A stretch of DNA of 64,000 nt from a virus. The notes under the pieces were generated by a model. It had not been told where the DNA came from. It did not search any database and saw nothing but the letters and a program-made list of their open reading frames with translations. Position 1 is the first letter of the stretch, and every line of letters begins with the position of its first letter. This document shows, in pieces, positions 1 to 50,491 of this stretch. Both the position numbers and the translations under genes were made by a program. The DNA lies in IMG/VR virus record IMGVR_UViG_3300033143_005712, positions 1 through 64,000 of that record; one strand, given 5' to 3'.

Positions 1-114
1 TAAGGCTATTATGTAAACCTTGGGATGTTTGGTGATTGGAATTGAGGGCTATAATGGTCTCTATTTTGGTGTACAACCAGATTGTACTATCAGAGTGACC
101 TTCAATGCGTTATA

Positions 115-138
115 AAACGAAGTTACTGAATATTGTAG
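115..138 (-). promoter_or_regulatory. Early element copy 1
   Basis: This copy has the conserved core AGTTACT, preceded by AAACGA and followed by an AT-rich half. It lies in the same orientation as the other six copies. The right end is degenerate (ATTGTAG instead of TGGTTG). No ORF start is visible on the minus strand between it and the window edge. Promoter function is inferred from the other copies. Confidence 0.5.
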
Positions 139-174
139 GCAATTAACAACCTAAATCAGGGGTAACAAGCTGGT

Positions 175-198
175 AAACGGGATTACTTGATGTGGTTG
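175..198 (-). promoter_or_regulatory. Early element copy 2 (degenerate core)
   Basis: The sequence has AAACG, TTACTT and TGTGGTTG at the same spacing as the other copies, but GGATT replaces AAGTT in the core. It lies only 37 bp from copy 1, so the two form a tandem pair. A function as a tandem promoter is inference. Confidence 0.45.
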
Positions 199-303
199 GT
201 TGTAGTTTTATAGAGTATCATTTGGTTAAATGACGGTGTCGGCAGGAAGCCAACACAGAATGGTGAAGGTAGTCTATTTTTATCACTAAATCAAGGGAAA
301 TAC

Positions 304-373
304 ACTAAAAGACTAAAAAACTAATAAACTAAAGGACTAATGGCCTACAATCTAAGGGACTAAAGGCTAAAAA
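304..373. repeat. 8-bp-period ACTAAARR tandem repeat
   Basis: Units begin with ACT at 304, 312, 320, 328, 336 and 359. Degenerate units start at 344, 351 and 366. The spacing is therefore 8 bp with two 7-bp steps. The array abuts the terminator of the minus-strand gene that ends at 497. It could be a protein-binding iteron array or a simple slippage repeat; the sequence does not decide. Confidence 0.7.
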
Positions 374-397
374 AAAAGTACACCCTTTAGGATGTAC
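369..397 (-). terminator. Intrinsic terminator of the 497-841 gene
   Basis: On the minus strand, arms GTACATCC and GGGTGTAC (378-397, one G-T pair) flank a TAAA loop and are followed by nine T residues (369-377). This is the standard rho-independent layout. It lies about 100 nt beyond the stop codon of the secreted-protein gene. Confidence 0.8.
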
Positions 398-496
398 TCT
401 GTTACTGTGGGGATTTCAACCCATCAGCCTTTAAGAAGATTGTAGAGTTAGTGTAAGGCTATTAATAACGCCTCATAGAAGCCTCCTTTCCAATGG

Positions 497-841
497 TTAT
501 AGACTATCAAACAGAGTTTTTAGTTCATCAGTCATAAATGTCCTGACATCTGCAACCCTTGTAGATTCAAAGATAACATCAGTCTGTAAAGGGTCATCAT
601 CGTCTAACATATCACGAAGATAGACTTTGTACACTGCATTTTCATACGCAATGGTGTATTGAAATGTACCCACATCAATAGTACTCGTAGTACGAGCCTT
701 AATCTGAGCAATAGCAACCTTGATGACTTTAACATCAGTATCAGTGATGGTTACTGATGGAGGGTCAACAGTCATAACAGTTTGTGCTTGCATAGTAATC
801 ATGCTAAGCAATAGGACGAAAGAAATAATGAATGTTTTCAT
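497..841 (-). CDS. Small predicted secreted protein
   Basis: This 114-aa protein has an N-terminal signal peptide: a Lys near the start, a hydrophobic core over residues 4-16 and a probable cleavage site near residues 19-21 (QAQ/T). The remainder is a single small domain, rich in Val, Ile and Thr at first and acidic near residues 77-85 (DDDD). There is no lipobox cysteine. I do not recognise the family. Early element copy 3 lies 29 bp upstream, and a strong terminator follows. It therefore looks like a one-gene early transcript. A phage-encoded exported early protein could act at the host envelope, for example in superinfection exclusion, but that is inference only. Confidence 0.7.
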   Translation of the reverse strand: MKTFIISFVLLLSMITMQAQTVMTVDPPSVTITDTDVKVIKVAIAQIKARTTSTIDVGTFQYTIAYENAVYKVYLRDMLDDDDPLQTDVIFESTRVADVRTFMTDELKTLFDSL

Positions 842-869
842 TGTACATAGTTTAGTTTATACTGCAATC

Positions 870-893
870 AAACGAAGTTACTCAATGTGGTTG
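870..893 (-). promoter_or_regulatory. Early element copy 3, upstream of the secreted-protein gene
   Basis: This is a full-length copy with AAACGAAGTTACT on the left and ATGTGGTTG on the right. On the minus strand it is followed by a second conserved block, CAGTATAAA, and the ATG at 841 lies 29 nt away. The same two-block layout occurs ahead of the genes starting at 1858 and 2117. Confidence 0.7.
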
Positions 894-905
894 ACGATAG
901 TAATA

Positions 906-989
906 AAGCAAGAATGCTGTGACGAGCTACATTTAGTACTCACTACGCTCTAAAGCCGTTCAGCTTATCATTGAGTTGCATTCTTGCTT
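906..989. ncRNA. Candidate structured RNA closed by a 12-bp stem
   Basis: Perfect 12-bp inverted arms (906-917 and 978-989, AAGCAAGAATGC and its complement) enclose a 60-nt interior. The interior has its own short pairings on the minus strand (AAGC/GCTT and GAGC/GCTC). This gives a multibranched fold on either strand. The closing stem is too long and the loops do not fit a tRNA. No early element lies directly upstream on the minus strand, so the promoter and direction are unknown. It may be a regulatory RNA, a processing site or a cruciform. Confidence 0.4.
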
Positions 990-1011
990 AGTATGACACT
1001 AAATCTAAGAC

Positions 1012-1037
1012 CCACGCATAGTATCACAACTACGTGG
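1012..1037. other. Hairpin CCACG/CGTGG
   Basis: The arms CCACG (1012-1016) and CGTGG (1033-1037) are extended by TAGT/ACTA with a CA bulge. A second short inverted repeat, ATGTTG/CAACAT, follows at 1041-1076. No T-run follows either hairpin, so these are not classic terminators. Confidence 0.4.
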
Positions 1038-1084
1038 CGAATGTTGATGCTTGGTGGTGCAGCTCTATGGCAACATCTTCAAAT

Positions 1085-1113
1085 AACCCCTCAACTTCGT
1101 TGGTTGAGGGGTT
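1085..1113 (-). terminator. Terminator of the 1126-1419 gene
   Basis: A perfect 11-bp stem (AACCCCTCAAC / GTTGAGGGGTT) with a 7-nt loop starts 13 nt beyond the stop codon on the minus strand. It is followed by TTATTTG. The stem is strong and the T-tract is modest. Confidence 0.75.
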
Positions 1114-1125
1114 CAGCATCAATGT

Positions 1126-1419
1126 CTATTTGACATAGAGCCACTTGAGTTTCATAGGGGCATCACCTTCTTCGGCATCATCAGGTGTATAATCACGCTC
1201 TTTGATATCAAACATATCAAGGTCAAGCTCGATAACTGCGTCAACAGTCTGCTCTTCCAGCGTTTTGATATAATAAGTGCGAATGCCTGTTTTAGGGACA
1301 TTACCAAGACCTGCAATGTGTACCGTAGCACCGTCTTCTGTCTCGGTCTTCAGAGTGACGATGAAACCACCATTAGATGATTCGGTACAACTTGTAACAT
1401 TAAGCTGAACTTTGTTCAT
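1126..1419 (-). CDS. Small acidic early protein, unknown function
   Basis: I chose the ATG at 1419, giving 97 aa (starting MNKVQLNV). An in-frame start at 1461 would add a hydrophobic 14-residue leader that abuts the promoter-like element. The protein alternates Val/Ile/Thr-rich strand-like segments with acidic stretches (ELDLDMFD; DDAEEGDAP near the C-terminus) and ends in KLKWLYVK. The composition would fit a small beta-barrel, but no family is recognised. Early element copy 4 lies 43 nt upstream and a strong terminator follows, so it is probably a monocistronic early gene. Confidence 0.65.
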   Translation of the reverse strand: MNKVQLNVTSCTESSNGGFIVTLKTETEDGATVHIAGLGNVPKTGIRTYYIKTLEEQTVDAVIELDLDMFDIKERDYTPDDAEEGDAPMKLKWLYVK

Positions 1420-1461
1420 GGCTATAAAGTATAAGTGAATAAATAAATTAATATCGAGCAC

Positions 1462-1485
1462 ATACGGAGTTACTTTATGTAGTTG
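1462..1485 (-). promoter_or_regulatory. Early element copy 4, upstream of the 1126-1419 gene
   Basis: The copy has ATACGGAGTTACT on the left and ATGTAGTTG on the right. The second conserved block on the minus strand is present as GATATTAAT. The distance to the preferred start codon is 43 nt. Confidence 0.65.
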
Positions 1486-1491
1486 TAGCTA

Positions 1492-1600
1492 GATAAAAGA
1501 AGAGAAGCCCACTACTAAGCTCCTCAATACTTCCTACAAGGGTCTTATTCCTCATTGCTCCCCATTTTGTCTAATGAATAGTGTGATGAAGCTGTGAGAA
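1492..1600 (-). ncRNA. Candidate ~100-nt small RNA unit
   Basis: Early element copy 5 (1602-1625) would start a minus-strand transcript here. A terminator-like hairpin lies at 1502-1525 (GAGGAGC / GCTTCTC with one G-T pair and a 10-nt loop), followed by TTCTTTTATC. The only ATG-initiated frames between them are a 6-codon ORF and a 26-codon ORF that runs through the hairpin. Neither is convincing. A promoter, a terminator and no good ORF suggest a small RNA, but a microprotein is not excluded. Confidence 0.4.
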
Positions 1601-1601
1601 T

Positions 1602-1625
1602 AAACGAAGTTACTTAATATGGTTG
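1602..1625 (-). promoter_or_regulatory. Early element copy 5, upstream of the candidate sRNA
   Basis: This is a full-length match: AAACGAAGTTACT followed by ATATGGTTG. It sits directly beside the terminator of the 1646-1858 gene and points into the ORF-poor interval 1492-1600. The second block is weaker here (TCACAGC). Confidence 0.6.
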
Positions 1626-1630
1626 GGCTA

Positions 1631-1660
1631 AGAAAAATAGTGAGACTACAGCCCCACTAT
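1631..1660 (-). terminator. Terminator overlapping the end of the 1646-1858 gene
   Basis: On the minus strand, ATAGTG and CACTAT arms (1637-1660) with a 12-nt loop are followed by TTTTTCTT. The hairpin includes the stop codon of the upstream gene. Confidence 0.55.
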
Positions 1661-1858
1661 ACCTAACTCTTTCTGTACCTCGAAGTTGGTTGACTTGGCT
1701 CTTTTACAAGCCTCTCTTTGCAGTGCATCACGTACTTCACAGTACTGACGATGTTGAACATACTCGTTGGCTTTCCAATGCTTGTATTGTAATGCATCAG
1801 CTTCAACAATAGCTTCATTAAGCTCTTTAACTGTCATTTGATTGATATGTCGTTTCAT
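1646..1858 (-). CDS. Small helical early protein, unknown function
   Basis: This 70-aa protein is mostly charged and probably all helical, with Glu, Lys, Arg and Gln on a regular Ala/Leu background and no membrane segment. The start is ATG at 1858. Early element copy 6 (1889-1912) lies 31 nt upstream with its second block (CAGTATTAAT) well conserved, and a terminator overlaps the stop codon. The layout of one promoter, one gene and one terminator matches its neighbours. I do not recognise the family. A small helical early protein could bind a host enzyme or DNA, but nothing in the sequence says which. Confidence 0.65.
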   Translation of the reverse strand: MKRHINQMTVKELNEAIVEADALQYKHWKANEYVQHRQYCEVRDALQREACKRAKSTNFEVQKELGIVGL

Positions 1859-1888
1859 GATATCATAGTGTTAATTAATACTGAGAAC

Positions 1889-1912
1889 ATACGGAGTTAC
1901 TTCATGTGGTTA
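1889..1912 (-). promoter_or_regulatory. Early element copy 6, upstream of the 1646-1858 gene
   Basis: ATACGGAGTTACTTC is followed by ATGTGGTTA. On the minus strand the downstream block CAGTATTAAT is present, and the ATG at 1858 is 31 nt away. Confidence 0.7.
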
Positions 1913-1926
1913 TACTAAGAGGTAAA

Positions 1927-1951
1927 GTAAGAGGACATTACATCCTCTTAC
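1927..1951 (-). terminator. Terminator overlapping the end of the 1938-2117 gene
   Basis: A perfect 9-bp stem (GTAAGAGGA / TCCTCTTAC) with a 7-nt loop contains the stop codon of the small membrane-protein gene. A short TTT follows on the minus strand. The stem is strong and the T-tract weak. Confidence 0.6.
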
Positions 1952-2117
1952 TGTGGAGTACCCATCCTTGTATACAGATGGCAACAGGAAACATACCGGC
2001 TACACTAAACACAACCATCATACCACTAAAAGGCATGAGTGTGTATATTGCTATGTTACCTGATATGATGATGATAACAACAACGGTAAGGCTGATGAGG
2101 TCTTTATGATGTGTCAT
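1938..2117 (-). CDS. 59-aa two-helix membrane protein
   Basis: I translated this ORF by hand. It starts with ATG at 2117 and reads MTHHKDLISL, then a hydrophobic stretch at about residues 8-24 (rich in Val and Ile), a short turn, a second hydrophobic stretch at about 30-50, and a short basic tail ending HSKRM. It looks like a small inner-membrane hairpin protein. Early element copy 7 is 33 nt upstream with the second block (CAGTATTAAT) intact, and a terminator hairpin covers the stop codon. This regulatory framing is the main argument that such a short ORF is real. Function is unknown. Small phage membrane proteins of this kind can be antiholins or exclusion factors, but that is only a guess. 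Confidence 0.6.
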   Translation of the reverse strand: MTHHKDLISLTVVVIIIISGNIAIYTLMPFSGMMVVFSVAGMFPVAICIQGWVLHSKRM

Positions 2118-2149
2118 GATAGTAGAGTTTTAAGATTAATACTGTAATC

Positions 2150-2173
2150 ATACGGAGTTACTTCATGTTGTGT
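2150..2173 (-). promoter_or_regulatory. Early element copy 7, upstream of the 59-aa membrane-protein gene
   Basis: ATACGGAGTTACTTC is followed by ATGTTGTGT. The minus-strand second block, GATTACAGTATTAAT, is the best preserved of the set, and the ATG at 2117 is 33 nt away. Confidence 0.65.
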
Positions 2174-2461
2174 TGTTAGGTGTAGTGTGGTGTGGTAGAG
2201 TAGTAGTATGTATAGCAGTAGGTATTATATGTCGGGAGAGATTTACTGATGAGACTCTTTCTACAGATGGACTCGTAAAATGCCTTTCCTGCAGAGAGGA
2301 GGGGGGGGAGGTTCAAAAACTCGGAAACGGAAGGGGCCTCTTTTTTAGGGACACCCACACCTTCACACTCCTCACTTTCTGTAGTACACTCACTGTGACC
2401 CAATTCACTACAAAGTAAAAATAAATATGAACATTTATGTACATTTTCATCTTTACTACAC

Positions 2462-2469
2462 TATCTTTG
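2462..2469 (+). promoter_or_regulatory. Bacteroidales-type -7 element (TATCTTTG) ahead of the late operon
   Basis: TATCTTTG fits the TAnnTTTG -7 consensus of the Bacteroidales primary sigma factor. It lies 32 nt before the first plus-strand gene (2501). No clear TTTG -33 element is seen; TTTT occurs at about 2444-2447. A short palindrome, ATGTACAT (2437-2444), lies just upstream and could be an operator. Confidence 0.5.
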
Positions 2470-2500
2470 TAGTTACAAGTAACGAAAAAGAAGAGCAATT

Positions 2501-2839
2501 ATGACAATAACTAAAGTTTTAAAACTATCGGCTATTGAGTACTATAACACGCACCTGCAGCTTATCAATCCTCTATTACCTGTGCATCTTACGCCCAAGG
2601 AAATTGAGATTTTGGCTAACTTTATGTCTTTTACAGGAATCTTGGCCGAGGATAGATTTGGTGCAACAGCGAGAAAGAAAGTTAAAACTACTATGAAACT
2701 TTCAAATGCAGGATTATCTAACTATATGAGGACTCTCAAAGACAAAGGATTTATTACGACTAATAAAATACTCCCGATTCTATTTCCTGAGAATGGCTCA
2801 CAGTTATATCAATTTAAACTAACTAACTACGAATTTTAA
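2501..2839 (+). CDS. Winged-helix DNA-binding regulator
   Basis: This is a 112-aa protein. Residues ~25-95 fit a winged helix-turn-helix. A helix starts at LTPKEIEILANFM, and a basic recognition region (ARKKVKTTMKLSNAGLSNYM) leads to an ALKDKGFI-like helix, here TLKDKGFITTN, which is typical of the start of the wing in MarR/replication-regulator folds. It is the first gene of the plus-strand operon and sits directly behind a host-type -7 element, so it could control the switch between leftward early and rightward late transcription. The fold is called from sequence pattern; the regulatory role is inferred from position. Confidence 0.65.
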   Translation: MTITKVLKLSAIEYYNTHLQLINPLLPVHLTPKEIEILANFMSFTGILAEDRFGATARKKVKTTMKLSNAGLSNYMRTLKDKGFITTNKILPILFPENGSQLYQFKLTNYEF

Positions 2840-2849
2840 ACTTAAAATC

Positions 2850-3035
2850 ATGGCAAATCCAGATAAGAAACCAAAAAAAACCAAAGTAGTATATAAGAAA
2901 GCAAAAAAATCTCCTCCTGCAAAGAAAGTACCGGGAAAAGCAACGAAAGGAGTGAGGTCTGTAAAAGGAAAAACACTTGCTGAACTTAAAGCTGAACGCT
3001 TGGAAGCAAAAAGAAAACAAATGAGGAAAAAATAA
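2850..3035 (+). CDS. Lysine-rich histone-tail-like small protein 1
   Basis: This 61-aa protein is very basic, with Lys dominating throughout, interspersed with Pro, Ala and Val (for example KKPKKTKVVYKK and KKSPPAKKVPGKATKG). It ends in a likely short helix (AELKAERLEAKRKQMRKK). The composition resembles histone H1 or bacterial HctA/AlgP-type tails and predicts a disordered nucleic-acid-binding protein. Two more genes of the same type (5260-5607 and 5607-5840) lie just before the terminase. A role in condensing or packaging phage DNA, or as an internal virion protein, is inference. Confidence 0.7.
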   Translation: MANPDKKPKKTKVVYKKAKKSPPAKKVPGKATKGVRSVKGKTLAELKAERLEAKRKQMRKK

Positions 3036-36786: not shown

Positions 36787-38880
36787 ATGTCAGGAAGATT
36801 TTATAAAACAGCAAGAGCACAACACATGGATTATGCTATGAAGTATCCATCAGAGTTGTTATTTAAGGCTATTGCCAAAAAAGATGCTGAAATTGACCAA
36901 GAAATTCAGAGCACTGAGCAAATCAGGCAAGGTTTGATGGCACAGGAAGCTAAAGCTAAGGGTTCTTTGGGAAGAGGTATGTATCCTCAGCAAGATGAAG
37001 AAGACTATAAAGCTGAAGTTGGCGGTTTTGAAGCTGAGATTGGAGAAATTACTCAATCTATCTATGATGATGCATACGGAAAAAGTAGGATGAGAGAAAT
37101 TTCTGATGTCAGAAGTAGAGTTGCAGCCAGTATGACAACTGGAAATCTTGCAATGTTTAATAAGAATTTTAATGCTGGTAGAGATTTTCTTGAAACCAAT
37201 AAAGATATCGACCCGGCAATAGTAGCTGCAGCTTATAAAGAAGGCATTGATAATTGGGGTAAGACAATTGATGACAAAACAGGTGAATACAGGACTCTCA
37301 AATTCAGAGATAATCTTCAAGATGCAGACATTCCGAATGAGGCATATGATTGGGCAAGAGGAACGAGTAATACTTTGGGTACAGCAAATAGAACTGCTTT
37401 AACAGAAGCCAATCTGAAAAATGACAGAGACGTTATGAGAACATTGTGGCAGAATGCAGAACTTGGTCTATTACCTATTACAGAAGGTACAGGAAAAGAT
37501 ATGAAAGTAATAGCTCCACAAGATGCATCTGAAGAACAGATGAGAATTGCTATTGACAAAGAAATTAAAAGACAAGCAGACCTTGCTGTTGCAACTACAA
37601 TGAAGTATGAAAAAGTAAGTGGTAAAAAACCTAAAGAAGATAAAACTGTATATGCTCCTGACAGGGCTTATATCTCACCGGAGGGAACAGGTCTTACAAG
37701 ACAAAGTGTTGCAGGACGGGCAATTGAACTAGGAAGAGCTAACGGAGCAACTTCAAATGAAGAAGCAATACAACTTTACAAACAAGAAGTTGACAAACTG
37801 CTTGCTTCAGGAAATGTTACAAGTGGAGCACAGTATTTTGAACTAATGATGAAAAGTGCTGTATTGGAAGAATACATTACAATAGGAAAAACACTATTAT
37901 CAGCAGACAATATTCCAACAGACAATCCCAATATAATAAAGATAAGTAAAAGAGAACAATATTTCGATGCACTTACTGCTAATAATACAATTCCTGTTGT
38001 TGGTGGGTGGGGCGACAGATTTGAGAAAGAGATTTATACTCAAGCTGTTAAATCTGTAAATAATTTTATCAAAGATAAATCAAGATTTAATAATACACCT
38101 TTGGAAGATAATATGGGAAGATTCAATGGAAAAAGTCCTAATGATATGATTGACTCAGGTGTAATAAGACCTTTGATTGAAAACCCAAAGTATATTAAAG
38201 CTATAAAAGAAAAACTTTTTGATGACTATGCTGTAAATGTAGATAATATGAAGCTTTCAAAAAAGAATGGTAAACACATACTTATATTGTATGCTGATAA
38301 AGGTTATATCGACAGCGATGAAAAACTGGAAAATAAACTTAATTCTTCAGGATATGACGTAGAGGAAATGAGTTCTCCTTCTGATGTACCATCTTATAGA
38401 ATTGAAGTACCATTGCCAGAATTGGTAGTATCTGCAACAGAATATGAAAATTTTGAAATCTTGGATGCAGAACCTATTCCTACACTTACAGTTAATTCTA
38501 AAGGTGGAAACTATTTTCGCAAACCTGCAGTACTTGATGGTGAAATTATTGACTTGTATATAGATGCAGAAGCTGTTGGAGACAATGATTATCTTGAAGC
38601 TGAAAATGCTGAAAAAATGGATAATTATCTTTCTACATTACATTCTGAAATGCGTGCTGAACAGAAAGCAAAAGGATTACCAGAAAATTTCAGATTTACT
38701 TTGATTGAAAATGAGAACTCTATTACAGGTATAACAGTTACTTCACAAGGTTTTGTAGTATCCGAAGTAACAATAGATGAAACTACCGGAAAATCCACAG
38801 AGAAAGTAATGTCATTGGAAGATTCAAAAAGAATTTTAATGGGATTTATGTATTTGTTACCACAAAGCTATGAAGAATAA
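36787..38880 (+). CDS. Probable large internal virion/cargo protein
   Basis: This is a 697-aa protein, mostly helical in the first ~330 residues (EIDQEIQSTEQIRQGLM), then alpha/beta with a beta-rich C-terminal third (IEVPLPELVVSATEY; TLTVNSKGGNYFRKPAVLDG). The last 11 nt overlap the start of the RNA polymerase ORF, so the two are translationally coupled. No catalytic motif is recognised. By gene order it is a cargo or ejection protein. Confidence 0.5.
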   Translation: MSGRFYKTARAQHMDYAMKYPSELLFKAIAKKDAEIDQEIQSTEQIRQGLMAQEAKAKGSLGRGMYPQQDEEDYKAEVGGFEAEIGEITQSIYDDAYGKSRMREISDVRSRVAASMTTGNLAMFNKNFNAGRDFLETNKDIDPAIVAAAYKEGIDNWGKTIDDKTGEYRTLKFRDNLQDADIPNEAYDWARGTSNTLGTANRTALTEANLKNDRDVMRTLWQNAELGLLPITEGTGKDMKVIAPQDASEEQMRIAIDKEIKRQADLAVATTMKYEKVSGKKPKEDKTVYAPDRAYISPEGTGLTRQSVAGRAIELGRANGATSNEEAIQLYKQEVDKLLASGNVTSGAQYFELMMKSAVLEEYITIGKTLLSADNIPTDNPNIIKISKREQYFDALTANNTIPVVGGWGDRFEKEIYTQAVKSVNNFIKDKSRFNNTPLEDNMGRFNGKSPNDMIDSGVIRPLIENPKYIKAIKEKLFDDYAVNVDNMKLSKKNGKHILILYADKGYIDSDEKLENKLNSSGYDVEEMSSPSDVPSYRIEVPLPELVVSATEYENFEILDAEPIPTLTVNSKGGNYFRKPAVLDGEIIDLYIDAEAVGDNDYLEAENAEKMDNYLSTLHSEMRAEQKAKGLPENFRFTLIENENSITGITVTSQGFVVSEVTIDETTGKSTEKVMSLEDSKRILMGFMYLLPQSYEE

Positions 38881-41800
38881 GGACAAAGACCCAACACTTA
38901 AAAATACAGATGGAGCAATTCCTATGAACGAACAGGAAGTAAATGCTTTTATTGCTTCTAAAAAGCCTATGATTATGCGAGGTAAAAGAAGTGAAGAAAT
39001 ACCTCCTGCAGAAGTTTCTATGAAGCCTATGATTGACTCTCGTATAATGACTAATGATTATATGAGTATTCCTATGGATAAAAGAGTACCTAAGTTTGAC
39101 CCAAAGGTTCTTGAACAATTGAAAGGAAGTTTTGATGAATCAAAAAGTGCTTATAACGAACTTTTATGGAATAAGGCTGAAGCAGAAGCTAAAGCTAAAA
39201 CTAACGACTCAGGAAACTGGTATGATGCTTATTCTAAGGTAATCAAAGAAGGAGATGCCTTTGACTGGTTATCTGTTCCTCAATGGGCAATAGCTCATAT
39301 AGAAACATTGGATGTTATCGGTTCTAGAACTGCTGCAAAAGTGTTTGGTGGAGAGGAAGAAGACTATGGTATTCCTGAAAAAGTATTCAATGTAGCAAAA
39401 AAGTTTGCTAGTGCAGAAGCTAACATAAAAGCAATTATAACTGGTGACATTGCTCGTATACTGGATGTTGCTGATTGGAGAGTTACAAATATTATTCCTA
39501 CAAAACAGAGTGCTTATGCTTTTTACAGAGATGTAATAGGAACATTGAAAAGACATGGTGAGAATCTTGAAGCAACAGAATTCATGCAAAATCTCAATGA
39601 ATCTCTTTATGAGTATCTTGATGAAACACCTCAGAAAGTAATTCCTTGGTCAGATAAAAAATGGGAACAATATAATGCTGAAACACAAAGAATAAGAGAA
39701 AAAGGAGAAGCTACAGACTTCTATGGATATTTGAAGAAAATGGATAAAGCTTTTGAATGGCTTGATGACTGGATTGGAGATGAGGAAACAAGCAATTGGT
39801 TTACTGATTTAACAGATGCTAGTCAAAGTTCAAGGACTACGAGAACTGACTTAGTAACAGAATTTGCATTAGATAATGATGTTCCTTATTGGAGTATGGA
39901 TGGTGCTAATTGGACTATAAACAATGGTGTAAATACACAAACTTCATTGACTGCTTTTGCTATTGAAGGTATGATACCCGGAGGACTTTTTGCAAAAATG
40001 AAAACGATTCCTATGCTTGTTAGAGGTGCAAAAACAGCAAAGGAAGCTCAGAATATGATTAGAGTAGGAAATGTTATTTTAAACAACAAATTTACTAGAG
40101 GTTTATCTTCTTTTTCTAAAAATACTTTAGTACCAACCATGAAAACTGGAATATCAGGTGCTGTACCTGCAGGAAGTGAAGTAGGACAAATTGGAAGAGA
40201 TGTTGAGAGACAAGCTAAACTTATCTACGCTGAAAAATATGGTGGAGAACTTTGGAAACAACATTGGGAAAGGCAACAACAGATTTACTTTCGTCAAGCT
40301 CAAAGAGAAGGAAATGAAAAAGAAGTAATGTCTAGGATGCAACAATATGAAGTTGAAGAAGTTGAAAGATTTTTTGTTGAAGTTCTGAAAGATAAAGAAA
40401 CCTATAATAAAATTGTAAAACAATCAGCTCATGCAGCAAGAATTGCGATAAAAGGGAATTCTCCAATGTATTTTATGAATTTTCCATTTGGTATGGCCCT
40501 TAATAATATGAGTGCATTTGCTAAACGTATGAGAGTAGGTTATAAGAACCTTGCAGGTGGAAGTATAAGTACAAGAGCTGCATCAGTAAAAAACCTTTCT
40601 GTCGGGAAAACTATGAAAGTATTAGGACTTGAAATGGCTTCTGAGTCATTGATTGAAGAAGGATGGATAAATCCTTGGGGTGAATGGAGAGGAATAGCTT
40701 ATGCTAAAGGAGAAACTCTTACAGGAGATAAATTCTCTGACAGACTTTGGGAAGGTGAACTCTTAGAGTCTATGCTTTGGGGTGCAGCCGGAGCTTTAAT
40801 GATGGGTGCTCCTCAAGCAGTATCATATAGGTCTAACAAAAAGGCATACAAACATTACATGGAGAAGTATAATGAGTATGTAGAATCTCTTCCTGAAGAT
40901 GCAAAAAAAGCATTATTCAACATTATTACTTCAAATTCTTCAACTTTCAAACAAGCACAACTTGAACAAGAAATCAAAGAAGGTAATGCAGCAGGACAAG
41001 ATACAAGAGCATTAAATGCATTAATACTTCGTTCTCAAGCTCTTACAGCTTTCAAAACAGGTATGACAGAACAACTGTTAGATATATATCAACAAATAGC
41101 TAATACTTCAGAAAATGTTGACGAAAAACAAGCTGCACAAGATATTATTGCTGAGATTCTTGAACTTGAAAAAGTATACATTGATACTCAAAAATGGGAA
41201 GATAATTTAGCTGTCTTTGATATAGTAGCTGATATAAAAGCTAATAGTAAAGTAGCTCTTCAGAATGACATGATAATTGAAGCAGAATTGAAAGCTGCTG
41301 CAGTAGAACAACTTGAAGCTGGAAAAAAAGCTTTCGAAAATGCTGACTATTATTTTGAAGAAGATGGTACTTTAAAATTTACTGGTAAGGATGCTGATGC
41401 CTTCCGTGACAGAATGCTAGTAAAACCAAAAGTTAAGCATGTATCAAATTATAATAAAGCAATACTTAGCAATGCTGATATAACTCAAGAATTAATTGAT
41501 TCTGAAAACCAACTTAAAGATGTAACATCTGACCAGTATCAGCGTGATGTACGTGTTGCTAAAAAAGTAGAACAGAAAGTTGCCAAAAATTTTCCTGATT
41601 TATTCTCTTCTGAAACCGGTAACGAATTCCGTCAGAAGATGAGTGCAATATTCAAAGGAGAAAAACTCAGTAAGAAGCGTGAAGCTATATTATACAAGAA
41701 ATATAAGAATATGTATAATGGCTTTAAAAAGTCAAGACAACAAAATAGCATGGCCCCTAAAGGTTATGTTCCTATTGTAAGCAAAAACAAGTTGATTCAT

Positions 41801-44800
41801 CGTCAGACACAAAACATTGCCAAAAAATTTACCAGAAATAGAAAAGCTGACAAAAATGTTGATGAAGACGCTGCTCCTATCAAAGTTACACCAGACGATG
41901 AAAATTATGCCAAAGCAGAGGTAAATAAGTGGATTAATAATCGCAAATCTGCAGGAGATACTAATCTAACCTTTGATAGGATGATTAGGGATTATCTTGG
42001 CTTAGATGAAAAACAACTTACTGAAAATGAACTTGATTCAAGAAAAGAAGATACTGAAGCAATGTTTGACATGCTGGAATATGGCTGGAGTAAAGGTGGT
42101 CATGGAGAAACTAATGGAAAAGAAGTATATCAAGAACATTTTGTAGAGGAATTTTCTACAGAGAACTCTCTACAGCGTTTCAGAAACAGGATTAAAGGAA
42201 GGACTGTAAAAGCAGAACCTAAAGAAACTACTCCTGTAAAACAAGAGAAAGAAGATGAAATTACAGAAGAAGAGTCTGATATCATTGATGAAGAAACAAA
42301 ACAGGAAACAAAAGAAGCTATAGAAGCAGGTGAAATTGTTAATGAAGAAAAAGAAGAAGCTGAAGAAACAGTGAATAGTTTAGGTAGATATATTACACTG
42401 AAATTCAAAGCTTATAAATCCGCACCTATTTCACTAATGACTGGAATACGAAAAATAAAAATCTTTCGTGTCAAAGATTCTAACATTGATGGTGTAAGAC
42501 TTTTTAATGTTAAGAAATTCAAAAAAGGTGTAAGACTGGCTTTAAAAATTACTACTGAATCGGATTATAACATTCCAATTGTTTATAGAATAAATGGAGA
42601 AGAACAGAAATTTGAAAAGACATCTAAGAGTGATTACGGAGGTTTTTTTGAAAATAAATACGGAAGAATAACTCATTTCAGATACAAAAATATAACAGTC
42701 GAAATTGAAGGAGAAGGATTTAAGTTCAGTCAAGTTCCAACTGAAGTTGGCCCTGATGGTAGATTGCAAGATGCAGTAGAATATAAGTCTTATGACCATA
42801 GAGAACCGGGAACTGTACTTAATGATGAAAAAAATCCAAATACAAGACATCATCAGCATAAAGTCACTGATGACTTTTTTGTTGTGAATGATGGAGATTT
42901 CAGTGCTCTCAATAATCCTAATGTACATGAAGTCAGAGTAAAACGCATTATAAACAATCCTTCTAAAGAAGGAGGAAAGTCTTATATTGAACTTACTATT
43001 GTTGATAAAGATGGAAAAGAAGGAAAATTACGAAAAGTTGAAGTTGAAAATGACAGAGAACAGAATGTACCTATGGGTGCTGCAGATGAATCTGACGGAG
43101 CTATGGTTGCTTGGATTGATACTTATCAGACTCTATTGCTTGATGATACGCATGATGAAGCAGCCATCAGAGCTGCACAGAAGAACACTATTGCTTTTCG
43201 TAAAGATGTAGTTAATGGTAAGAAAAAAACAGCAGCTATTCATGCCAATGCTCCTATCGGTAATCCTCGCTTTGATGAGATGACAGAAAGTACCAGTATT
43301 GCTGAACAAGACCCCACAGCTATTCTCGGTCAAAGAATTAGGGGTGTTATAAGGATAGGCACTGAAGTTTTTGAGAATAAGAAAAGGAAAATTGTAAATA
43401 AAGATGAAATTCTTAATGAGAATGTAGATGCAAAAAGTCTTCCTATTGATATCAGATTTATAGGTATTAATGAAAATGGTGTGGAACTGTATGCTGCATT
43501 TTTTGCACATGGACTAGAGAAAGGAGCTAAGCAAGATTCTGTTGGTAGTGGTAATATATTGTGGGTACTGCGTGCTTATATTACAAAGTTTGATACTGAA
43601 GGTAAACTCAACCATATTATTTCACCTAAGACACGTAAAGCTATTACTGAAAAACTGCATACTATTACTAGTGGATATCCTATTTCCGATTTCAGGGGAG
43701 TAAAAGAATATCTGAATAACTTCACAATTATGGATGTTCCTTCTGATGTGAAGTTGGATAAGAAGATGAATAAGACAAAATTCATGACTTATGTAAACTC
43801 TTCGAAAATTGCACCCGGTCAACCTGTTCTGATGATGAATGGGCCAGTAATATTTTATGCTATAAAAGGAGAAGGAATTCCTACAGGTGGTGTAAACGAA
43901 GATGGTAGTCCTAAGACTACTAAGATGATAAGTATTTATCTGAGTGAAAGTAATTTTAATGCTAAAGAACTTGAAACATTATTGACAAGTATTGAGACTA
44001 AAGCTTCTTCGTTTAAGAAGAGTTTCAATTCAGAATATTCTCGTAAAGAAGGAAAGATTGCTACATTCGAAAAGAACGGTATAATAAATGAAATGGATTA
44101 TACTGAACATCAGAGAAATAATCTTACAACAAATATAAAAGCTTTTGAGGAAACATCAGGAGGAGAGACCTTTTATGTAACAGCAACAAATACATCAGTT
44201 TCTATTGATACCAATCAAGAAGGAACTGCTCAAGCTGTAGCTCAGACACCTAGTAAAAAAGAAGAAATTATAGGTTTACAGATGGAAACCTTATCTGAGG
44301 AACTACCTGAAAGTAAGACCACTGAAGAAGCTATCGAGGACAATAAAACTCCTGATGAAATAAAACTTCTCATCGAAATACGTAGAGCATTAGGACTTTT
44401 AGGTTCAAAGAAGATTAATAAGTTATTTGCAACGATTGACTTAAGTGAAGACTTCTCTTTAATCAAAGAGGCTTTGAATACACCTGCCTTTTTTCATACT
44501 GTACCGGGTGTAAATCCTTTACAGAAAGAACAAATTGTACTTACCGTAGTAAATGCCATTATCAATAGTGGGAAAAGTCTTACAAAAGAGAATATTCAAG
44601 AAATGATTAACAACGGTTTTGTTAATCAAATAGTTGAAGGTAAAAGTAAATTTCAGAGTTTGATTGACAAACTTGATGCTCTTATTGAAAGTGGCTCTGA
44701 AATTGAGAGTCTTGTAGAAATTTCTCAGGAACTAAAAGACAGTATGAAAATATTTGATACTGTAGAAAAGAACTGGAAGAAGTTTGAAGATGACATCAGA

Positions 44801-47800
44801 GTACAATTATACAAATATGCAGGACTTGATGAAAATCAAGCTATTAGTGAACTTGAAAATCATCATGAAGGCCAAGACAGGATTTTTGACAAAGAAAGTA
44901 CTGAACTTGTAAGTAAAAATACTCTTCCTGAAGAAATGAAGAAGTTCTTTGCTGGTATTGAAAACTGTTACACTGATGGTACTGTTATACAAGGATTTTT
45001 AGGTGTACCAACTTATGTACCTTTCGATGTAGCAATCAATATTGTTACACGCATCATTGGAAGCAATCCTAAAGCAGGAATGACCTTTGAAGATGTAATT
45101 AAAATTCTTGGAAGAGAGAAAGAAGCTGTTCCATTTTTAGGAAATGTTATTTCTAAGCTCAGTGACCCAAAAATTATGACTGAGCAGATAAAGAACAGAT
45201 TTATGACTCACATGGTTAAGCATAATATGACCATGCAATATGTTCAATATAAGTATGATAGAAAGAGTAAGCGTTATGAACTCAGAGTATTTGATACCAA
45301 CTCTTCACAGGTAGAAAAAGTAATATTCAGAGAATGGATGAATGGTGTAAAAGCTTCTAAACTTGTAAGAGTTGATGAAGATTCACGGGACTCTATGATT
45401 AATAAAGATGAAGCACAAACACTTCATACTGAATTTCGTGAAATGGTTGAAAGTATTAACAAAGACAATAAAACAAATCAATTTGTAAAATGGCTTACTA
45501 AAAATCTAGCTGGTAAGGATTATACAAAACAAGAAATACTTAAAATTCTTACACAAACTAAGAAAAGTGCTTTTACAGAACAAGTAAGTGAAGCTATTGA
45601 CAGAAATCTTGATGAAAACAAAACCTTCTCCAAAACAGAACTTATTGAATGGTTACCTACATCCGAGTTCTCAAATGAAAGACTTATTAACTGGTTAGCA
45701 AAATTCAATATTGTACTTTCAAACAGAACTATAGAAAGCCTAAAAGTCAACGGATATGTTGACCATAAGGGTCAAGAAGTAAACTTCACTTCAATGTTTG
45801 AGGAATCATCCAAATCAAGTGGTGTATTTGGTGGAATAGCTTACAAACTTTCAGAGTATATCAATACCAGTGAAGGCAGGAAAATTAATATCACAGAAGA
45901 CCCTCAAATGCATCCTTTCAGAAGCATTGAAACTTCATTAAAGTCATTAGCTAAAGAAGAGGGCCGTTTTAGTAGCAGGGCAGTTACTATCTCATTCAGA
46001 GATGCAGGAAAGAGTTATTCTGGATTTGTACCACCCAAATTTGCTACAGACCGGATTGACGAACTTAAAGAAGATACTGATACAAGAAAAAATCTTCAAA
46101 AAGACCCATATTCTTCAAATAGTATGCTACTGAAATTACTGACAGGAGATTATGGTACTGAAATTCAAGAATTACTTAGAGTAGTTCATATAGGTGGTTC
46201 TGCAATGCGTAAAGCAGGAGAAAGCAATCCTACTGGAAATAAAAATGCTATTATTAATCTTGCTGATGGTGACCAAGAAATTACAAGACAAGGCTTTTTT
46301 CAGGATACAAGGCAAGGTAAAATTTCAGTCAGCAATACATATAATGGTTTGAAATTACGTATTGCAAATATGTTCTTTCCTACAATGAGTGATAAGAAGC
46401 AGATATTAACAATGACAATGCCTGTTCTCGACCTTACCTCAAAAGAAATAGGATATAAGAATAATGAAGTACAAGCTAATGATGCAGTAAAAGAAGCCTT
46501 ATTCCAACAGCTTGTAGTTCCTGAACTTAAAAGAATTATAGCATTTCATAGAGGAGGTGGACAGGAAAATAATATTGAAGGAGTTGATTTAGCTTCTCAA
46601 GTATTTTTAATGATACCTCAACTTAATGAGTTAAAAATCGGTAACCGAAGACTTATAGAAGTTCTTGTTAGTTTGCAGGATAAAGAGATAGCAAAGACAA
46701 TGAAAGATGATGTTATTACAGATGACATTAAAGATGAGGCTATTAAAATTATTATGAAAGTTGTTACCAAAGAGGTAAATAACAAGATTCAGAACTGGAA
46801 AGACTCAGGAATTATTACCGAAAAAGGTAATCCAGAAATGCTTAATGATGAGTATTTCAATCCTGATGATGGTGAAAGAAGGTTTGTTGATAATAAATCA
46901 GAGCTTGCTGCAACAGACTTTGTAATCAATAGTCTTATATCATATTCCAACATGTTTCAGACTGTTGGAGGCGATATTGCATATTACTCTCAAGATAAAG
47001 CCTTTGATAAATTTCCAGTGGATGTAGAAACTATTAAGAGATTTAAAGAAATTGATGAAATTGAATACGGAGCTGTAATAGAGCAGATTGAAACTCTTTA
47101 TAATACCGGAATTATAAATAAAATAGCTTATAAACATCTGAAAGAGACTGTTAAGCCGCTTCCTTATATGGGAGATAACAAACAAGCTTACATAGACTTG
47201 ACTAAAAATATCGGTACAAATCTAGGAAAACGTCTCGCATTAATGCTTGCACCCGGTTTGAAACCTTATGGTTTGGATACCAATTACAGGCAACTGTTTT
47301 TAAAAGACTCTGTAGATATTGCTGACAATATGGAGTATATCGTTGAACTACATTATGGTGAAGATGGAGTAAAAAGGTTCAATGAGATAATGGCTATGGA
47401 TACTACCGAAGAAAATAAAGAGGGATTTATAAAAGAGGAATTTCCAACTATTAGTGCATTCTTTGCTGTAGATTCTACTGATGCTCAAGAATATACAACA
47501 GCAAAAGAGCATCTTGATATTTTATTTGCATTGGGAAGAATATCAGAACAAGAGCATAAAGACTTTACAGCTAAAGCTGAAGACCAGTATCGCAATGGTG
47601 TTACGAAAAGAAATAAACTTGAAGATAAAGAGCTTAGAGTTATTTTTCAACCAATGAAACCTGTATATACAGGTTCTCATTTTGATGGACAAAAAATGAG
47701 AATGATGTATATTAAAACATCAGCTTATCCATTACTTCCTCAAGTAACTGCCGGTACAGCATTGGAAGACCTCAGAAAAGTTATGGATGAGGTACAGTAT

Positions 47801-50491
47801 GGTAAAGAACTAGGTGGCATGAATGTAAGAGCTACTTATAAAACAGGTGCAAAAGTAGGAGCTACAGTAACAGAAATTGACCCATTTGCTGTTGATAACA
47901 AAGGCAACTTAACTGTAGGAAAACTTACTGTAGATGAACTTGAGAAATCATCAGTAACTCTTGATAGAAGGAATTTCAGAATTCAGCAGGATGTACCTTT
48001 TCATGCTCTTGGAAGTGAAGAGAAAACAAGTGTGGTATCAATTGGTACTCAGTTGATGAAACTGCTCTTTGGTGACGGAGTAACAGATATTCAAGGTTTT
48101 CAATATGGAAAAGGGAAACCTAAGTCTGGAAAGGAACTTCTTAAAACATATAATGAAACTTTTGGAGAACTTACTGACCACCTCAAACAGGAACTTTATG
48201 ATGAACTTGGATTAAACTCAAATGGACAACCTTTGAATCCTGAGTACTTTATGTCACAACTTTCTCTTATGTTACAAAGGGAAGCCAAGAAGAGGAATTA
48301 TCCTCAACAAGATATTGATGCTCTTGAGATTATAGATGTAGGTGATAGAAAAGGTGGAATTTCAGGATTTATATTCAGGAATCCTCTTTGGATGTCTTCC
48401 AATGCAATGCGTTATGAGTCTTTACTCAATTCATTGATTACCAATAAGTTAATAAAACTTAAGATGCCCGGTTATGCTTATGTTGCCGGGTCACAGAAAG
48501 GATTTGAGACTGCACATAAGGTAAAAGATGAAGAGACTGCTTCAAGAATAATTTATACGAAGCATTACAATTCTAAAACAGGACTTATTGCAGCTCGTAA
48601 AGGAAAGAAAGCTCAAATACTCATTCCTTCAAGGTTTAGAAACAGCAGAGGTGAGCTGATTGACTTATTTGAAGGAACTATAGATGCTAATAATAATGAA
48701 AGAAATCAAGGTAAGTACGTCAGAAAAGTAAATGGTGTATGGCAACTTAAAGAAAAAATGATTGATGGTGAACTTCTGGATGTTACATCATTCAGAATTC
48801 CAACTTCTTCTCATGTATCTGCATCTCAAGTAGAAATTGCAGGATTCCTTCCACCTGAAGCGGGTGACCTTATGATTGTACCTAAAGAATTTGCTGTACA
48901 AAAAGGACTTGATTATGACATTGATAAGGAATTTTCTTACAATTTATGGCACGCAACTGATGAAAATGGAAGAATTGTTGCACTAAATGAACACATTGAC
49001 ATTGATAAAATAAGTTTTAAGCTTGATGAAGCCAGAGAAGAACTCAGACAAATTAGAATTGGTGATGCAAATTTCTACGAAAAATTAAAAGAAATTGAAA
49101 ATCTTCCTGAAGATGAAGTAAATAACAAACTTGAAAAAGCTCTTGCTGCTATACTTAACAGTACAAAATATAAAACTACTACAGTAGAAGATGTAGTAAT
49201 TCGAATAAAAGCATTACAAAAAATAAGGAAAAAATATCTTGAGAATGAGATTGTAAGAATACACTCTGCAGTAATGGGTAGTGATAATCCTGAAGTACAA
49301 CGTAGGATTAACAAGGTGCTTTCAATGGATTATGCTTCACAACAGGCTGAAAAGCTTCAAGATGAAGATGCTGAATTCAATACACTTTTATCTGATGAAT
49401 ATCAGACAAAGAAGATGAACTTAGGTGCTGTTGGTCAGATGGCTATTGGGGTCTATTCTAACTTTGTAGTATTCAATTCACTTCTCCAACAGTCTTCATC
49501 TAACATTTCAATCAATGTTGGTGATGCCGGACTTACAATAGGAAATTATAAGTCTGATGGTAAACTAGGAAGATATACCAATATCTTGTCTTCAAATACT
49601 AGCAAAATAATTGTAGATATTATCAATTCCAAAAAAGGTCTGCAAGAAACCAAAACTGCTCAAATTGAAAAACTCAAAGAAGGTTCTCTTACTTATTATG
49701 AAATTAGTGAAATAGTAAAAGACACTAAGATATTCATAGATGAGGAGGGAAATCGTACAAGTGAAAAAGAAGGTGGTATTGAAATAAATATTATGGATGA
49801 CATAAGAACTACCTCTGAAGCATTTGCAGAACGTCAGAATACAGCTACTGACAATGAGAAAGAACAAATCTTGGGCCGGGTAGGTGTGAACTCTGGAACT
49901 ATCAATGTAGATAGCATTCTTACTTTACTTGGATTTGATAAGGGTGAATATGTAAAAGATGCTAATGGAGAGTTAGTTTTAGATAAAGCTCGCAAACCTA
50001 TAAGGATGTCCATATCATATCTGTTAATTTCTCAACCTATTGTAAAAGAGTATATTAAGCGTAAACAGAATAGAACTGCGAAAATCAATAAAATTTTTCC
50101 GACAAATGAAGAAATGCTTGCTGAACTTATTGATGAATTTGGCGGAATGGATTCTTTGAAGACAGATGATATATTGACTACTCAAAATATGTATGATGCT
50201 GCTAAAAACGGTGTTGATAATGGTATTCAACTTAATGCTTTATTTATGTTCTTAAGAATTCAGGAATATAGTATGAGTTTAAGTGCTACGCAACAACTAG
50301 TAGGTATTATGAAGAATGGTCTTGATAAATCTCTGTTTAATACAACATATTTGTATGAACTATTAAGTAATATAGCCTTCGATGAGAATTTTGAGAACAT
50401 TACAGATATTATTGGAGATTTTAAATTTGGTGACCAAAGTAGGAGATGTATTTATAAGACCTACAACTATGATGGGCCATCTTATTGTTAA
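38870..50491 (+). CDS. Giant virion RNA polymerase polyprotein (3873 aa as read)
   Basis: The C-terminal part carries the crAss-like virion RNA polymerase signature. A Gly-Ser-Gln-Lys-Gly loop lies at residues 3207-3211, SFRIP at 3307-3311, and the metal-binding DYDID motif at 3348-3352 (D3348, D3350, D3352). These are the expected elements of a double-psi beta-barrel active site related to QDE-1-type polymerases. The long N-terminal part (about 3000 aa) has helical regions, weak hydrophobic stretches (about 625-645) and an acidic Glu/Lys linker at about 1115-1170. Upstream regions may be separate cargo modules released by proteolysis. The ORF ends 139 residues after Ser3734-region sequence of good quality. 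The last ~17 residues look like out-of-frame sequence because reading should shift +1 at about 50438 into the next ORF. Confidence 0.85.
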   Translation: MKNKDKDPTLKNTDGAIPMNEQEVNAFIASKKPMIMRGKRSEEIPPAEVSMKPMIDSRIMTNDYMSIPMDKRVPKFDPKVLEQLKGSFDESKSAYNELLWNKAEAEAKAKTNDSGNWYDAYSKVIKEGDAFDWLSVPQWAIAHIETLDVIGSRTAAKVFGGEEEDYGIPEKVFNVAKKFASAEANIKAIITGDIARILDVADWRVTNIIPTKQSAYAFYRDVIGTLKRHGENLEATEFMQNLNESLYEYLDETPQKVIPWSDKKWEQYNAETQRIREKGEATDFYGYLKKMDKAFEWLDDWIGDEETSNWFTDLTDASQSSRTTRTDLVTEFALDNDVPYWSMDGANWTINNGVNTQTSLTAFAIEGMIPGGLFAKMKTIPMLVRGAKTAKEAQNMIRVGNVILNNKFTRGLSSFSKNTLVPTMKTGISGAVPAGSEVGQIGRDVERQAKLIYAEKYGGELWKQHWERQQQIYFRQAQREGNEKEVMSRMQQYEVEEVERFFVEVLKDKETYNKIVKQSAHAARIAIKGNSPMYFMNFPFGMALNNMSAFAKRMRVGYKNLAGGSISTRAASVKNLSVGKTMKVLGLEMASESLIEEGWINPWGEWRGIAYAKGETLTGDKFSDRLWEGELLESMLWGAAGALMMGAPQAVSYRSNKKAYKHYMEKYNEYVESLPEDAKKALFNIITSNSSTFKQAQLEQEIKEGNAAGQDTRALNALILRSQALTAFKTGMTEQLLDIYQQIANTSENVDEKQAAQDIIAEILELEKVYIDTQKWEDNLAVFDIVADIKANSKVALQNDMIIEAELKAAAVEQLEAGKKAFENADYYFEEDGTLKFTGKDADAFRDRMLVKPKVKHVSNYNKAILSNADITQELIDSENQLKDVTSDQYQRDVRVAKKVEQKVAKNFPDLFSSETGNEFRQKMSAIFKGEKLSKKREAILYKKYKNMYNGFKKSRQQNSMAPKGYVPIVSKNKLIHRQTQNIAKKFTRNRKADKNVDEDAAPIKVTPDDENYAKAEVNKWINNRKSAGDTNLTFDRMIRDYLGLDEKQLTENELDSRKEDTEAMFDMLEYGWSKGGHGETNGKEVYQEHFVEEFSTENSLQRFRNRIKGRTVKAEPKETTPVKQEKEDEITEEESDIIDEETKQETKEAIEAGEIVNEEKEEAEETVNSLGRYITLKFKAYKSAPISLMTGIRKIKIFRVKDSNIDGVRLFNVKKFKKGVRLALKITTESDYNIPIVYRINGEEQKFEKTSKSDYGGFFENKYGRITHFRYKNITVEIEGEGFKFSQVPTEVGPDGRLQDAVEYKSYDHREPGTVLNDEKNPNTRHHQHKVTDDFFVVNDGDFSALNNPNVHEVRVKRIINNPSKEGGKSYIELTIVDKDGKEGKLRKVEVENDREQNVPMGAADESDGAMVAWIDTYQTLLLDDTHDEAAIRAAQKNTIAFRKDVVNGKKKTAAIHANAPIGNPRFDEMTESTSIAEQDPTAILGQRIRGVIRIGTEVFENKKRKIVNKDEILNENVDAKSLPIDIRFIGINENGVELYAAFFAHGLEKGAKQDSVGSGNILWVLRAYITKFDTEGKLNHIISPKTRKAITEKLHTITSGYPISDFRGVKEYLNNFTIMDVPSDVKLDKKMNKTKFMTYVNSSKIAPGQPVLMMNGPVIFYAIKGEGIPTGGVNEDGSPKTTKMISIYLSESNFNAKELETLLTSIETKASSFKKSFNSEYSRKEGKIATFEKNGIINEMDYTEHQRNNLTTNIKAFEETSGGETFYVTATNTSVSIDTNQEGTAQAVAQTPSKKEEIIGLQMETLSEELPESKTTEEAIEDNKTPDEIKLLIEIRRALGLLGSKKINKLFATIDLSEDFSLIKEALNTPAFFHTVPGVNPLQKEQIVLTVVNAIINSGKSLTKENIQEMINNGFVNQIVEGKSKFQSLIDKLDALIESGSEIESLVEISQELKDSMKIFDTVEKNWKKFEDDIRVQLYKYAGLDENQAISELENHHEGQDRIFDKESTELVSKNTLPEEMKKFFAGIENCYTDGTVIQGFLGVPTYVPFDVAINIVTRIIGSNPKAGMTFEDVIKILGREKEAVPFLGNVISKLSDPKIMTEQIKNRFMTHMVKHNMTMQYVQYKYDRKSKRYELRVFDTNSSQVEKVIFREWMNGVKASKLVRVDEDSRDSMINKDEAQTLHTEFREMVESINKDNKTNQFVKWLTKNLAGKDYTKQEILKILTQTKKSAFTEQVSEAIDRNLDENKTFSKTELIEWLPTSEFSNERLINWLAKFNIVLSNRTIESLKVNGYVDHKGQEVNFTSMFEESSKSSGVFGGIAYKLSEYINTSEGRKINITEDPQMHPFRSIETSLKSLAKEEGRFSSRAVTISFRDAGKSYSGFVPPKFATDRIDELKEDTDTRKNLQKDPYSSNSMLLKLLTGDYGTEIQELLRVVHIGGSAMRKAGESNPTGNKNAIINLADGDQEITRQGFFQDTRQGKISVSNTYNGLKLRIANMFFPTMSDKKQILTMTMPVLDLTSKEIGYKNNEVQANDAVKEALFQQLVVPELKRIIAFHRGGGQENNIEGVDLASQVFLMIPQLNELKIGNRRLIEVLVSLQDKEIAKTMKDDVITDDIKDEAIKIIMKVVTKEVNNKIQNWKDSGIITEKGNPEMLNDEYFNPDDGERRFVDNKSELAATDFVINSLISYSNMFQTVGGDIAYYSQDKAFDKFPVDVETIKRFKEIDEIEYGAVIEQIETLYNTGIINKIAYKHLKETVKPLPYMGDNKQAYIDLTKNIGTNLGKRLALMLAPGLKPYGLDTNYRQLFLKDSVDIADNMEYIVELHYGEDGVKRFNEIMAMDTTEENKEGFIKEEFPTISAFFAVDSTDAQEYTTAKEHLDILFALGRISEQEHKDFTAKAEDQYRNGVTKRNKLEDKELRVIFQPMKPVYTGSHFDGQKMRMMYIKTSAYPLLPQVTAGTALEDLRKVMDEVQYGKELGGMNVRATYKTGAKVGATVTEIDPFAVDNKGNLTVGKLTVDELEKSSVTLDRRNFRIQQDVPFHALGSEEKTSVVSIGTQLMKLLFGDGVTDIQGFQYGKGKPKSGKELLKTYNETFGELTDHLKQELYDELGLNSNGQPLNPEYFMSQLSLMLQREAKKRNYPQQDIDALEIIDVGDRKGGISGFIFRNPLWMSSNAMRYESLLNSLITNKLIKLKMPGYAYVAGSQKGFETAHKVKDEETASRIIYTKHYNSKTGLIAARKGKKAQILIPSRFRNSRGELIDLFEGTIDANNNERNQGKYVRKVNGVWQLKEKMIDGELLDVTSFRIPTSSHVSASQVEIAGFLPPEAGDLMIVPKEFAVQKGLDYDIDKEFSYNLWHATDENGRIVALNEHIDIDKISFKLDEAREELRQIRIGDANFYEKLKEIENLPEDEVNNKLEKALAAILNSTKYKTTTVEDVVIRIKALQKIRKKYLENEIVRIHSAVMGSDNPEVQRRINKVLSMDYASQQAEKLQDEDAEFNTLLSDEYQTKKMNLGAVGQMAIGVYSNFVVFNSLLQQSSSNISINVGDAGLTIGNYKSDGKLGRYTNILSSNTSKIIVDIINSKKGLQETKTAQIEKLKEGSLTYYEISEIVKDTKIFIDEEGNRTSEKEGGIEINIMDDIRTTSEAFAERQNTATDNEKEQILGRVGVNSGTINVDSILTLLGFDKGEYVKDANGELVLDKARKPIRMSISYLLISQPIVKEYIKRKQNRTAKINKIFPTNEEMLAELIDEFGGMDSLKTDDILTTQNMYDAAKNGVDNGIQLNALFMFLRIQEYSMSLSATQQLVGIMKNGLDKSLFNTTYLYELLSNIAFDENFENITDIIGDFKFGDQSRRCIYKTYNYDGPSYC

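Follow-up and report, generated by a model that had tools for sequence, protein, structure and literature searches.

What are the short repeated elements at one end of this viral DNA, and which RNA polymerase would read them? The window, the whole stretch of DNA analysed here, comprises bases 1–64,000 of a 67,859-bp linear record of a virus akin to crAss-like phages, and its early array is built on a 24-bp element. Seven co-oriented copies of the 24-mer CAACCACATNAAGTAACTYCGTWT occupy the minus strand between positions 115 and 2173. Four of them precede small genes: ACACAACATGAAGTAACTCCGTAT (2150–2173) lies 32 nt 5′ of the ATG of gene 1938–2117, TAACCACATGAAGTAACTCCGTAT (1889–1912) 30 nt 5′ of the ATG of gene 1646–1858, CAACTACATAAAGTAACTCCGTAT (1462–1485) 42 nt 5′ of the ATG at 1419, and CAACCACATTGAGTAACTTCGTTT (870–893) 28 nt 5′ of the ATG at 841. 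From the copy CAACCATATTAAGTAACTTCGTTT (1602–1625) the next terminator is reached without an ORF of at least 30 aa, and directly downstream of CAACCACATCAAGTAATCCCGTTT (175–198) and of the weakest copy, CTACAATATTCAGTAACTTCGTTT (115–138), there is no ORF. The seven positions, their common strand and the proximity of four copies to genes bear out the preliminary description, which had put the four gaps at 29–43 nt.

The pattern CAACCACATNAAGTAACTNCGTNT, allowing up to three mismatches, has six matches in the window versus none in 100 dinucleotide shuffles. A count over the full linear record (67,859 bp) returns exactly seven copies, all within 115–2173, and both the opposite strand of that record and a reversed control pattern return none. 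Contig L009, which is identical to the window across their overlap and runs 2,746 bp further left, adds two co-oriented copies (L009:1617–1640 and L009:1546–1569), so the array holds at least nine. Copy spacing is irregular, from 60 to about 690 nt. Across 2.9 million viral contigs, a 24-mer of the window type recurs in multiple copies only in the identical contig; single matches in other viral contigs look like chance and were set aside.

Following transcription, one meets first a terminator, then the element, a leader and finally a small gene. A second block, reported previously as common to four copies, begins 5 nt past the 24-mer in exactly the four gene-proximal copies; it reads CAGTATTAAT in two of them (2135–2144 for copy 2150 and 1874–1883 for copy 1889) and occurs as the variants CGATATTAAT in copy 1462 (1447–1456) and CAGTATAAAC in copy 870 (855–864), all on the minus strand. 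The leftward ORFs that follow encode 59 aa (1938–2117, without a Pfam match), 70 aa (1646–1858), 97 aa from the ATG (1126–1419) and 114 aa with a signal-peptide-like start (497–841). Upstream of copy 1889, a candidate terminator on the same strand (1927–1951, −8.4 kcal/mol) consists of the hairpin GTAAGAGGA..TCCTCTTAC and a T-rich tail, and intrinsic terminators precede copies 1602 (1637–1660, minus strand, called at L009:4406–4383) and 1462 (1502–1525, minus strand, called at L009:4271–4248). Five of the nine copies, namely 1602, 175, 115 and both in L009, do not stand directly before an ORF.

A unit of about 100 nt (1502–1625, minus strand), delimited by copy 1602 and the terminator that follows it, has no ORF beyond one of six codons and is a candidate early small RNA. 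At about 2297–2338 (minus strand) the window carries a further C-rich block together with sequence that looks structured (GGCCCCTTCCGTTTCCGAGTTTTTGAACCTCCCCCCCCTCC), an arrangement often found behind the element nearest the point of divergence and present likewise in L044, L061, L160, L100, L118, L079, phi14:2 and crAss001; it is possibly a conserved first early RNA. No Rfam family was found in the early region. Further left, L009 contains a tRNA-like sequence at about 120–235 (minus strand) with the T-arm GGTTCGACTCCTGC and a GGGG..CCCC acceptor, for which ARAGORN makes no call and which is perhaps a tRNA carrying an insertion.

Among the products of the window are a terminase, a portal protein and a major head protein of known type, and by terminase its nearest cultured phages are the Flavobacterium psychrophilum phages Fpv1 and FpV4 (about 47% identity, Fipvunavirus). 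Relatives were gathered by terminase searches (21 loci, then 80), and a simple motif finder was applied to the DNA upstream of their terminase genes. Eighteen related phages carry 2–8 co-oriented element copies (8–9 in L100) in the early leftward region, counts that are descriptive because the patterns were picked from the same sequences. The same layout recurs in all 18, each with its own sequences: the element is near-constant inside one phage and differs between lineages. Fpv1 has five copies of CAAAACCCTCACTTATT, and two exact copies of the Fpv1 type are present in FpV4. In the early-transcription sense the L011 element reads TTCAAACCCTTACTTATATCCAGTACTAACC, and the pattern AAACCCTNNCTTA gives six of six matches in reverse orientation across 92.7 kb of that contig, with none for the control. 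The remaining elements are CAAAACCCTCACTTATnnnnAGTATTAAT (L045/L044), CAATACCCTCACTAATTTA (L100), CAAAACCCCCACTAATTCTTGG (L118), CAATACCCTAACTTAGTACTG (L103), TAACTAAACACCCCCCTTTATGTTTGG (L079), CATCTTCCCCTTTATTTGGGACATTTAT (L071), TTTTTAACTnnnnCTTAGTTTTGACATTATTTT (L076), CCACTCCCACTTAGTTTTGACA (L012), ACACACTCTCTCATTTTCAGCA (L107) and ACAAACACCTTCTAACA (L137). Whole-contig scans of L100 (83 kb) and L076 (85 kb) return seven of seven and six of six matches in reverse orientation, each set in one region.

A theme, CCC(T/C)CACTTA, is common to many of these relatives, with the window, L137 and L107 as outliers. Similarity is higher within a phage than between lineages; for the window it reaches 30.3 bits within versus −2.6 for the best other phage. 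Local alignments of the window elements with those of other phages score 8.0–9.7, no excess over random 60-mers (8.7). What is visibly common to the window and its relatives is the AGTATTAAT block only, the 24-mer being private to the window's lineage. The two contigs closest by terminase, L065 and L066, do not reach the early region, and relatives of the early 211-aa protein and of the first rightward protein are few and distant. A de novo array finder returned no array in the FpV4 slice, phi14:2 or crAss001. The top motifs of L117, L120, L124–L128 and L027 were rejected as promoters, having proved to be protein repeats or coding bias. In L029, a more distant relative, start codons at about 65–2940 (minus strand) are directly preceded by six hairpins with a T-run, GC-rich and nearly identical to one another (GGGCGGGGTAACACCCGCTCTC and variants), which are candidate attenuators or hairpin promoters.

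Placement relative to genes and terminators was compared with random positions for 93 sites in 19 phages, counting as an ORF start an ATG opening at least 30 aa and as a terminator a hairpin with a T-run at most 75 nt upstream. Of the sites, 51% have an ORF start 15–65 nt downstream and 40% a terminator upstream, where the corresponding values for random positions are 19% (p 9e-8) and 6.6% (p 4e-12); these distance tests are independent of how the patterns were chosen, and their p values assume independent sites, whereas sites of related phages are only partly independent. The median distance from hairpin to element is 20 nt, and loose patterns gave one match on the opposite strand. Layout and comparison together argue strongly that the 24-bp elements function as promoters. 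The early-promoter part of the preliminary description is strongly supported on these grounds, since position, co-orientation, the terminator–element–gene order and restriction to the early region recur in the 18 phages.

The opposite arm of the window's divergent promoter region is of another kind. Bacteroidota housekeeping promoters carry a −7 box, TAnnTTTG, and a −33 TTG. An exact host-type −7 box, TATCTTTG (2462–2469, plus strand), lies ahead of the first rightward gene (ATG at 2501), and in 18 of the 19 phages an exact TAnnTTTG lies in the divergent gap shortly before that gene, mostly as TATCTTTG, TAACTTTG or TACCTTTG (the window and 17 other phages). The early elements rarely have one: TAnnTTTG falls within 60 nt of 9 of 93 elements, mostly in L076, L073, L079 and L012, compared with 3.4% of random 60-nt spans, and it occurs in one of nine such spans around the window's elements. 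Host-type promoters thus appear to serve one direction and something else the other. A sigma-70 scan stayed at background level (20 vs 17.3).

The window encodes a plausible reader. The plus-strand ORF 38870–50491 (3,873 aa) is a homologue of the phi14:2 virion RNA polymerase gp66 (E 2e-16); it is of the two-barrel type (DxDxD), with DYDID at aa 3348 (nt 48911–48925) where gp66 has DFDID. The premise on which the elements had originally been assigned to a virion polymerase is thereby confirmed, and of 17 large contigs of relatives searched with the polymerase core, 16 carry a homologue. The adjoining plus-strand ORF 50382–54980 matches the end of Fpv1 gp33 and, at aa ~970–1167 inside this large ORF, shows RecD/Dda-like helicase similarity (E 3e-5). 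ORF 38870–50491 is a candidate for the enzyme that reads the elements, and on balance the elements are probably early promoters used by the phage's own virion RNA polymerase, the second step being the less secure. The division between early and late enzymes in phi14:2 (PMC10136315) fits this arrangement, with host-type boxes rightward and other elements leftward. Against it count the five of nine copies that do not stand directly before an ORF, the overlap of some elements in four relatives with a host-like box, and the lack of an array from the de novo search of phi14:2 and crAss001, both of which have transcription data. More similar elements also do not go with more similar polymerases (rho −0.12, p 0.43), in a weak test on a small set of 45 non-independent pairs with a coarse identity measure. 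Reading by the virion polymerase, as opposed to host RNA polymerase aided by a phage factor, is a reasonable proposal to which this covariation test lends no support.

We infer that the elements are where transcription starts and that the virion polymerase carries it out. On infection, the product of ORF 38870–50491 would enter together with the DNA and initiate at every co-oriented element of the leftward early region, yielding short units of element, 28–42 nt leader, small gene and terminator; the first genes would thereby be expressed without the host enzyme. CAACCACATNAAGTAACTYCGTWT would act as the recognition block, and AGTATTAAT, 5 nt downstream, would probably be the start-site or initially transcribed region, while the gene that opens the rightward side of the divergent gap would rely on an ordinary host-type promoter.

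The alternative that survives best, unlikely as we judge it, keeps the promoters and changes the reader: host RNA polymerase would be redirected by a phage factor, such as a packaged or early activator or a sigma-like protein. Copies 115, 870 and 1602 include TAACTTCG, which departs from TAnnTTTG at a single position, so the previous statement that the elements do not resemble the host box holds for exact matches and fails for these three. An exact box lies inside several elements of L076, L073, L079 and L012, phages in which part of the elements coincide with a TAnnTTTG-like box (9 of 18–19 hits are there), and Bacteroidota sigma promoter features are partly present in L076 and L073. The lack of correlation with polymerase identity also leaves room for another reader. 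However, 18 of 19 phages have the exact box on their rightward side, so a host-type box could easily be used, yet it is absent from most early elements, and those of the window have neither an exact TAnnTTTG nor a −33 TTG.

The repeats could instead be operators, at which a phage regulator would bind beside promoters that went unrecognised. Their near-palindromic core, AGTNACT, and their multiple copies 28–42 nt before genes would suit such a role, but the elements of the relatives are not palindromic, the leaders show no other shared promoter-like sequence, and the median of 20 nt between hairpin and element leaves little space for a separate upstream promoter; we consider it improbable. Still less probable is an RNA-level signal in the 5′ leader, acting in translation or stability. 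Elements that follow terminators and closely precede start codons, with AGTATTAAT shared near the ATG, would be expected of it, but transcription would then need to begin within the terminator upstream, five of the nine window copies have no nearby ORF downstream, and as single strands the elements do not fold stably (DNA parameters). Replication iterons or packaging sites would also form co-oriented repeats clustered at one genome place, but the irregular spacing (60 to ~690 nt) and the arrangement of one element per transcription unit, with terminators between and start codons nearby, make them hardly credible; like operators and RNA leaders, they rank below promoters.

Returning to promoters read by the virion polymerase, we see roughly even chances that the virion polymerases of this group use linear, lineage-specific promoters with fast turnover, while the layout, the polymerase and the host-type late promoter stay fixed. 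The window would then be the most diverged case, its recognition block wholly new and its AGTATTAAT start region kept. In the literature searched, the main phi14:2 report aside, how crAss-like virion polymerases find promoters is not described. The present set spells out candidate promoters for about 19 phages, among them the cultured Flavobacterium psychrophilum phages (Fpv1: CAAAACCCTCACTTATT), and the exact TAnnTTTG before the first rightward gene is a usable late-promoter marker. If the proposal is true, it would provide orthogonal polymerase–promoter pairs for Bacteroidota, and the early genes of unculturable crAss-like phages could be called from sequence alone.

Among known systems, the Bacteroidota housekeeping promoter is matched by the box in the divergent gap ahead of the first rightward gene but not exactly by the window's early elements. 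The promoters of the coliphage N4 virion RNA polymerase are DNA hairpins recognised on single strands (review: PMC4496689). Like N4 and the Schitoviridae, the window combines several co-oriented early promoters, here putative, at the start of the early region with a virion-packaged RNA polymerase; unlike in N4, no stable hairpin arises in its elements, and the two polymerases are of unrelated kinds. An N4-like hairpin with a 5–7 bp stem and small loop was rejected for the elements, with minimum energies of 0 to −2.2 kcal/mol, not consistently better than shuffles. For the virion polymerase of Thermus phage P23-45, a pre-early AT-rich motif is tied to mapped transcription start sites and ChIP-seq (PMC10770324). 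That phage belongs to another group and its motif differs, and the window motif is known from sequence and layout; both systems nevertheless place a linear conserved motif before early or pre-early genes and encode a two-barrel virion polymerase, and P23-45 relatives that have the polymerase share the motif. In phi14:2, the virion polymerase is tied to rifampicin-resistant early transcription, and late genes are transcribed by the host enzyme (PMC10136315). Unlike the window, phi14:2 has yielded no repeated array, and the literature searched gives no promoter sequence for it; single C-rich candidates ahead of the first early genes, CATCCCCCACTCTTTTTTGG before 98111 in phi14:2 and CCCCCATCACTTAGCCAGTGGGG before Gp1 in crAss001, and CTTAGCCAGT, which recurs before 99527 of phi14:2 behind a terminator, are leads rather than evidence. 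With its homologous polymerase, gp66, and an early/late split that matches the window, phi14:2 is nonetheless similar to the system proposed here.
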